Part shown: piece by piece, positions 11,201 through 14,200 of the stretch
Layout of the letters: every line of letters starts with the position of its first letter
How positions within the stretch are numbered: the first letter of the stretch is position 1
Origin: Cloeon dipterum
Taxonomy: Eukaryota > Arthropoda > Insecta > Ephemeroptera > Baetidae
Reading direction: 5' to 3'
Length of the DNA: 64,000 nucleotides
Assembly (NCBI RefSeq): GCF_949628265.1
Contig: NC_088790.1
Location: 9,180,545 to 9,244,544 of the forward strand
Notes under the pieces: generated by a model
The model's input: only the letters and a program-made list of their open reading frames with translations
Told to the model about the DNA's origin: nothing
Databases searched by the model: none
Position numbers and translations under genes: made by a program

Positions 11201-14200
11201 GGGATAATATATGCCGCACGAAGGAACGATAAAAATAAATAAATGCAAATTGGGCAAAAATAAACTTTGCTTCTTTATGAAGAGATATAAATGTAGAGCA
11301 ACTTAACTTTTTACTCTGCTTCTAAGAAAATCAAATATATTAAATAAAACTCATTCCAGAAATAATTTCTTAAAAAAGTTTCCGAACTTGAATTTTTAAA
11401 AATCAGGTTCAAAGCAAATTAAAAAAAGTAAAGCAAGTGCGATAAATTATGTTTGAAAATTTATTCAACGATACGGAAAGACTTAATTTTATGTTTAAAA
11501 ATTCGTACTAAATTGTCGACGGATTATAATTTTTGCAGAGCTCACAAAACCGTCTGCTTATCAAGAATGGAAAGGTCGTAAATGCTGATGGAATTGAAGA
11601 CGCCGACGTCTTCATTGAGAATGGAGTCATCACGTAAGGACAAATTCCTTTTCCACATGCCTTATTTTTGTTATACCGCTATGCTTTTCTCACCCAAGGC
11701 AACTAGGGCGCAACCTTATCATCCCTGGTGGAACTAGGACCATCGACGCCAGGGGACGTTACGTGATGCCAGGTGCGAAAATTGCTTATATTTGCAATGA
11801 GAAAAAAACTGATAACTGAAATTTGCTTTGTTCGACAGGTGGTATTGACACACATACCCACATGGAACTCGAGCTGATGGGCGCCACCGCGGTGGACGAT
11901 TTCTACCAGGGCACCAAGGCGGCCATCGCGGGTGGTACCACCATGATCAGTAAGAAATTTTTCTAAATAGCTCCCAATTTCTCTCTCAACCGCGAAGGCA
12001 CGCAATCTTATTTCCGACTTTTCTGTATTTGTTTCCAATTTACGTTCGCCTCCGATTGCTTGAGTTTCGATGGCGAAATCCATGCCAATGGGAAAAGCGT
12101 CATTCTGAACTGAGTGATTACCCACAGTGGGTGATTAGCCATTTTACTAACGCCTGGCGGCACGCTTATCTGGAATTGGCACGAAAGCAGTAGCAGCGAG
12201 TGTGTGTATATGGCTCTGTTGCATGCACGCTTAACTTTGAGCCCGGGCATGCGAGCCCCCCTTGTCTCTTAAGTTTTTAAAGATTTATTGCCTCCGCAGT
12301 GGACTTCGTTCTGCCACGAAAAGGCGAGAGTTTGATCGAGGCGTTCGGCAACTGGAGGAGAAAGGCTGACCCCAAAGTGTGCTGCGACTATGCCCTGCAC
12401 GTCGGGGTCACTTGGTGGTCTGACCAGGTGTGTGCCGGATATTGCGTGATCATCTCGTTTTATTCATATTCTATTACATTTGGGTAGGTCAAGCAGGAGA
12501 TGACCGAGCTGGCCAAGAACCACGGCGTGAATTCATTCAAGATGTTCATGGCATACAAAGATCTGTACATGATCAGAGACCCTGACCTCTACAAGATTTT
12601 CGAGCACTGCAAAGAGCTGGGAGCCATTGCCCAGGTGCACGCTGAGAATGGTGATATCATTGCTGAGGTCTGTTGAATGATTTTTATTTTTTTAATTAAC
12701 AATTGTAAGAACATTTGTGGTTCTGCAGAACACAAAGAAGCTGTTGGAAGCTGGAATCACGGGACCAGAGGGACACGAAATGTCCAGACCAGAAGACGTC
12801 GAGGCTGAAGCCACCCACAGAGCCTGCGTAATCGCCAACCAGGTAGGAAAACGCCAGTTATTCCTTTTAGTTATTTTGATTTGCAGTTATTTTGATATAG
12901 TTCTTTAACCTTGAGTTCTTTGGAAGTTAAAATTAATTGCAGCACTTTTCCCATAGTTTTTGAACCTCACAAATGTGTACATAATTTTTTTCTGTTCTTT
13001 TTTATGATTTAATCCTGATTTGGTGTGCATGGCATGGACCAGGTGTCTTGTCCCTTGTATGTAGTGCACATAATGAGCAAAATGGCTGCGGATGTGATCG
13101 CCCTGAAGCGGAGCCAAGGGGCGGTGGTGTATGGCGAACCGATCGCCGCCTCCCTTGGCTCCGATGGCACTAACTACCATCACTCCTGTTGGCGACACGC
13201 GGCGAGCCACGTGCTCAGCCCACCGCTCCGCCCTGACCCTGAAACCCCTGACTACCTGGTGCAGATGCTTGCTGAGTAAGTCGCCCTCTAGCGCCAGTCT
13301 AGTGCCAGAAAAGCCCTCAAATGGCCAAAATTTAATTTCCCCTAAAGGTGCTATGATTGCGTAAAAAATGGCAATCGCGGCACGCATAATACTTAAACGA
13401 AATTTCGTATTTTCTGGACGACTTTTGGGAGTTTTTTTATTGCCTCACGTTAATTTCCATTGAAATACGATCTGTAAAATTCTAAATATTTTAACTTTTA
13501 CGTTTTTTCGAGTAAAAATTCCAAAATATTCTGTTAAGTTGATCTTTGATTAAAAAATTGTTTATAGTAGAGAGCCCAACCTGACCGAAAATCTGAGTAT
13601 TTTATCAAATTTTAACCATATTGTACTGGCTTCAACAAGTGAGAGGAAAAATTTCCACCTCATGAATTCTTTATTGGCTTGCTTATCTGTAAATAGATTT
13701 TATTATTTACTATTTTGCGAATTTTTAAAATAATTTTGAGGTCTTTTCTATTAATTTTGTGTGTGTTTGTGATGTGATCTCACTCTCTGCATGATTTTCG
13801 CACAATATTTCGCACATCATCACCTGCGAAACCTTGAAAACTGATCATCCGCAGGTTAACTGCCCACTTTACGTGGTGCGAGTGATGAGCAAATCGGCTG
13901 GCGACGTGGTCGCCGCCAAGAAAGCGGAGGGAAACGTAGTTTTCGGCGAGCCCCTGGCCGCCTCCGTCGGCACTGACGGATCGCACTACTGGAACAAGTG
14001 CTGGAGGCACGCGGCTGGACACGTGACCAGTCCACCACTAAGACCAGACACTGAAACCCCTGGACACCTGCTGGACCTCCTGGCCTCGTAAGACAAAATG
14101 CTTGATGAGAAGCCTCTGTTTGCAGCCTTTGTGGACTATTTTTTCTTTCTATAATTTGTTTTCATTTCAGAAGTAACTCTGGTTGGTTTTTACCTCATAG

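Follow-up and report, generated by a model that had tools for sequence, protein, structure and literature searches.

A homologous exon pair that probably switches a dihydropyrimidinase/CRMP gene of Cloeon dipterum between an enzyme and a non-enzymatic form at one zinc ligand

In Cloeon dipterum, a gene of the dihydropyrimidinase (DHP) and CRMP family appears to make both an enzyme and a non-enzymatic relative of it by way of one pair of homologous exons. We put at roughly 87% the probability that the two exons are mutually exclusive, with exon A (13043-13275, + strand) giving the enzyme, presumed to be the DHP form, and exon B (13855-14087, + strand) giving a presumed non-enzymatic form of the CRMP type. 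With exon A included, the product would be a dihydropyrimidinase whose six metal ligands are all present; with exon B, it would be a closely similar protein that has Arg in place of the ligand His259. Hydrolysis should be lost in isoform B because Arg259 would prevent a normal metal site, and the protein would be left with a CRMP-type role. Early stops in both kinds of mis-spliced message would leave the mRNAs carrying a single exon of the pair as the sole source of full protein. Exclusive use of the exons, a choice between them by tissue as in the fly, decay of the mis-spliced forms and loss of activity are what we infer. The gene lies in a window of 64,000 nucleotides (contig NC_088790.1, positions 9,180,545 to 9,244,544), which is the whole stretch of DNA that was analysed and to which all coordinates given here refer.

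The gene model runs along the + strand and encodes 606 amino acids, without an inner stop, whichever exon of the pair is chosen; every intron in it starts with GT and ends with AG. The shared coding exons, all on the + strand, begin with exon 2 (11539-11633), which has AG/GT borders, is in frame and aligns with human DPYS, and exon 3 (11699-11772), also bordered by AG/GT and in frame. Exon 4 (11839-11949) carries the zinc ligands H78 and H80 in the motif HTHM, and exon 6 (12488-12667) carries the ligands K170 and H203, both placed by the alignment with human DPYS; between them lies exon 5 (12300-12427; AG/GT, in frame). Exon 7 (12729-12842) ends in phase 0 ahead of the alternative pair. Beyond the pair come shared exon 9 (14348-14684), which opens with the bases TGA and contains the zinc ligand D337, shared exon 10 (15101-15509; AG/GT, in frame) and the last coding exon (16449-16540, + strand), which ends in TAA. 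At the other end of the model, a segment at 7959-8006 (+ strand), found in a candidate scan of positions 1-11500, is the probable first coding exon and would encode 16 amino acids. It was picked among mechanically derived candidates for its in-phase end and for the resemblance of that end to what we take to be the N-terminus of fly CRMP, and it is the model's least certain exon.

Residues 17-505 of isoform B are homologous to both DHPs and CRMPs. Against the TIGR02033 profile, isoform A scores 601 bits and isoform B 595 bits, with a cut-off of 393. Here lies a warning, as profile-based annotation names both isoforms dihydropyrimidinase and would misname isoform B, which passes the cut-off without one of the ligands. 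The neighbouring genes, assigned by eye, presumably encode a UBX-domain-like protein (17060-18260, - strand) and a WD40/DCAF10-like protein (from about 19557 onward, + strand).

The initial annotation of this DNA had described a DHP/CRMP gene with a duplicated exon pair in which His is exchanged for Arg at one zinc ligand, the motif reading YVVH in one exon and YVVR in the other, with the remaining five zinc-site residues intact in shared exons; the alignments support this description on each count. Isoform residues 256-259 are YVVH when encoded by exon A and YVVR when encoded by exon B, and the shared exons supply H78, H80, K170, H203 and D337, each identical to its counterpart in human DPYS (2vr2) in an alignment run with isoform B. 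Residue 259 of the isoforms is, we assume, the equivalent of human DPYS His248. Judged by sequence, isoform A has all six ligands of the metal site (H, H, K, H, H, D), H259 being contributed by exon A. Isoform B keeps the five others but has R259 and so falls short of the full set; a DHP-like sequence without a full metal site is what would be expected of a CRMP. For comparison, the metal ligands of the rat enzyme are listed as His67, His69, Lys159, His192, His248 and Asp326 (PMC2999344).

In CRMP1, CRMP2 and CRMP4, the position of residue 259 is occupied by Lys. The same paper reports other ligand changes in CRMP1 besides this Lys (PMC2999344), and the alignment indicates that CRMP4 also lacks K170 (Met) and D337 (Ala). 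A basic residue at the ligand position is therefore common to the sequences of CRMP1, CRMP2, CRMP4 and exon B. The site in isoform B nevertheless differs from those of CRMP1 and CRMP4, because it retains five of six ligands where they have lost several. As the rest of the site is held in common with the enzyme, exon B depends on a single ligand change.

The two exons are 233 nt each, with AG upstream and GT downstream, and both run from phase 0 to phase 2. Their protein segments are identical at 49 of 77 residues in an ungapped alignment, with a BLASTP E of 6e-40 for this single comparison. A length of 233 nt is not divisible by three, so both mis-splices run into an early stop, and only mRNAs with one exon of the pair encode the full protein. 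Skipping of the pair places a TGA directly after exon 7, at codon 251, made up of the opening bases of exon 9 (14348), and when both are included, a TGA is reached at codon 338, within exon B. The pair thus consists of neighbouring homologous exons in the same phase, and both skipping and double inclusion lead to a stop. It matches what the initial annotation had read from the DNA, namely two adjacent exons at 13043 and 13855 of the same length and phase, 49 identical residues among 77, and a broken frame in both kinds of mis-splicing. Exon junctions lie 334 and 743 nt downstream of the skip stop, and 202, 539 and 948 nt downstream of the double-inclusion stop, and decay of mis-spliced mRNA is expected because these later junctions follow the stops. 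Nonsense-mediated decay would then remove such forms; the junction rule for decay is followed less strictly by insects. A frame lock of this kind clears errors and leaves the choice itself unexplained.

One way to make the exons exclusive would be competing long-range pairing of the flanking introns, as in Dscam, and such pairing is an established route to mutually exclusive splicing (PMC11802352). Such a candidate exists in a 13-nt, 92% complementary, AT-rich pair that spans exon B (13721-13733 and 14308-14320). Against this, the total duplex energies between the three introns do not surpass those of dinucleotide shuffles, of which 58, 19 and 84 in 100 do at least as well, in a coarse test that a single short docking pair could escape, and we consider intron pairing an unlikely basis for the exclusivity of this pair.

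Exon A itself offers a possible handle on the control of the choice. A strong RNA hairpin is predicted inside it (13109-13163, + strand) from folding and comparison with shuffles. Perfect 12-nt arms (13109-13120 and 13152-13163) are extended inward to 20 pairs with one bulged base, after which a short inner stem follows. The hairpin was spotted first and tested afterwards; it reaches -41.9 kcal/mol in 63 nt, a value that 0 of 200 dinucleotide shuffles equal, as against 35 of 200 for the 63-nt stretch at the equivalent place in exon B, from which the hairpin is absent. With whole exons folded the excess is smaller (shuffles reach exon A in 3 of 200 cases and exon B in 46 of 200). Codon shuffles that preserve the protein never reached the exon A hairpin in 2000 trials, nor in the 400 of an earlier run; elsewhere they were unremarkable, with 52 of 150 for exon B and from 14 to 146 of 150 for six other exons. 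Exon A was shuffled 2000 times and each of the other exons tested 150 times, and the test covered eight of the 12 exons in the model, that is, all except exons 1, 3, 4 and 11.

Among 31,970 segments of 63 nt (step 4, both strands), the exon A hairpin is the second strongest, the first being at 33793, and the 71-bp stretch that contains it has no match elsewhere in the genome. A search of the window against Rfam gave no hit at gathering thresholds. The region of the strongest segment, at 33600-34090, consists of inverted arms around a near-perfect hairpin (about 33793-33855, -42.9 kcal/mol); by eye it resembles a fold-back or MITE-type repeat, and it too has no Rfam match. Splicing can be controlled by hairpins that mask or expose signals within exons (PMC11802352), and we tentatively propose this hairpin as a regulator of exon A. 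In a fuller and doubtful version, the stem-loop would hide or present splicing signals, with folding or a protein deciding between enzyme and CRMP, and Arg259 would replace both the zinc and its charge, in convergence with the Lys of vertebrate CRMPs.

With respect to activity, isoform B has likely lost its hydrolase function, to judge from its sequence and from a bacterial relative. In P. aeruginosa dihydropyrimidinase, Ala at any of the six metal ligands, including H239, is reported to give an inactive enzyme (PMC4437985). H239 occupies the same position as isoform residue 259; the comparison is with a bacterial protein and with Ala rather than Arg as the substituting residue. The His at residue 259 presumably binds the beta zinc, with H78, H80, K170 and D337 taken to be the ligands of the alpha zinc. 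Isoform B may still bind one metal, with weak or altered activity, because the alpha site stays complete. The mammalian enzyme is said in one paper to hold one metal only (PMC2999344).

That single metal ion would suit a reading in which both isoforms are enzymes, with Arg259 affecting only the metal content or the substrate, and the alternative exons tuning activity or binding surfaces. The five of six ligands retained by isoform B point the same way, as do the passage of both isoforms over the dihydropyrimidinase cut-off and the large surface-charge changes between the fly exons that are noted in a survey of mutually exclusive exons (PMC7954323). We nonetheless consider it very unlikely that isoform B is an enzyme, given the inactive Ala mutant of Pseudomonas, the Lys found at the ligand position in CRMP1, CRMP2 and CRMP4, and the loss of a zinc His in the fly exon pair as well (PMC7954323).

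The preferred reading, of an enzyme and a CRMP-type protein from one exon pair, also accords with how the two exons have diverged. At the DNA level they are identical at 147 of 233 nt, and their differences at codon positions 1, 2 and 3 number 28, 14 and 44. The Nei-Gojobori estimates are dN 0.31 and dS 1.89, for a dN/dS of about 0.17 that is only rough because dS is near 2, close to saturation. From this ratio, purifying selection appears to have held both copies since an old duplication. That one exon is a duplicate on its way to decay, or one seldom spliced in, the gene making a single protein, is hardly credible: the acceptors of exons A and B are the two lowest in T among the gene's 11 (0.30 and 0.25), which would favour it, but their dN/dS, their equal length and phase, the even change in the two exons (six private changes in A and six in B at columns where the other four aligned sequences all agree), the pyrimidine content of the exon B acceptor (0.55, ordinary for the gene, in which exon A has the lowest at 0.45) and the use of both exons by the fly all argue against it.

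The private changes were counted in a 77-column alignment of six sequences, namely exons A and B, two vertebrate DHPs, CRMP1 and CRMP4. Identity to the two vertebrate DHPs is 68 and 68% for exon A and 69 and 66% for exon B; to CRMP1 and CRMP4 it is 60 and 60% for exon B and 60 and 58% for exon A. Only one of the 77 columns, His259, is common to exon A and the two DHPs and not to exon B, CRMP1 and CRMP4, and only one, T58, is common to exon B, CRMP1 and CRMP4 and not to exon A or the two DHPs. In phmmer comparisons (PDB table), exon B outscores exon A against all 21 of the 21 vertebrate CRMP sequences, with 69.8 bits versus 57 for CRMP5, and the exons score about equally against three vertebrate DHPs; exon B scores higher against the Dictyostelium enzyme, and exon A higher against the bacterial enzymes (4 of 4). 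On a shared origin of exon B and the vertebrate CRMPs, the measures point different ways, the identities being about equal and the phmmer bits favouring exon B. Taken together, column counts, identities and phmmer bits make the ligand the clearest DHP/CRMP difference of the pair at the sequence level, and the remainder of exon B leans towards CRMPs more weakly. A counterpoint to the main reading is column 46, where exon A has His in place of a Trp that exon B and the four remaining sequences retain.

One gene probably serves for both jobs. When the genome (190 Mb, 10 contigs) was searched with the exon A peptide, matches at E up to 0.001 were confined to exons A and B. A second query, 98 aa long and drawn from shared exons 6-7, matched those two exons alone at E up to 1. 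No second DHP or CRMP gene was matched, and one as similar as exon B, which the exon A search recovered at 64% identity, would probably have shown up. Relatives of the exon B peptide were not found among the viral contigs scanned, nor were relatives found among genome contigs with a six-row alignment as the query.

Morris et al., in Genetics in 2012, reportedly described how the fly CRMP gene yields DHP and CRMP through alternative paralogous exons. The present case resembles Drosophila CRMP in having one gene and one homologous exon pair, with a zinc His in one exon only. In the survey, the zinc-binding residue '192' of fly CRMP (FBgn0023023) is given as His in isoform PA but as Gly in PB, a swap that is likely to reduce activity and serves as an example of a small-molecule site altered by exon choice (PMC7954323, 2021). 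The two cases differ in the swap itself, which is from His to Gly at 'residue 192' in the fly and from His to Arg at the equivalent of DPYS His248 here. The fly '192' may follow another numbering than that of DPYS; if DPYS 192 is meant, the fly ligand would differ from the one described here. The residue-level swap that the initial annotation had drawn from the sequence is indeed present, but as a zinc-residue switch it was preceded by the fly example printed in 2021 (PMC7954323).

The principle of an exon switch at a zinc residue is thus already in print, and the novelty here is modest. What is added is the Arg variant, a frame lock with immediate stops, a genome in which no second gene was matched, and the exon A hairpin. 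The pair provides, in another genome, an apparent switch between enzyme and non-enzyme that turns on one metal ligand in a duplicated exon, and a clean case for asking how little turns a metabolic enzyme into a CRMP. As in the Dscam and 14-3-3zeta clusters, homologous exons are presumably used one per mRNA in the present gene; unlike those clusters, it shows no intron pairing above shuffles and has two exons only. The vertebrate DPYS and CRMP (DPYSL) proteins are encoded by separate genes. They too combine an enzyme and a non-enzyme in one family, with Lys in place of the zinc His in CRMP1, CRMP2 and CRMP4, much as Arg takes its place in exon B.
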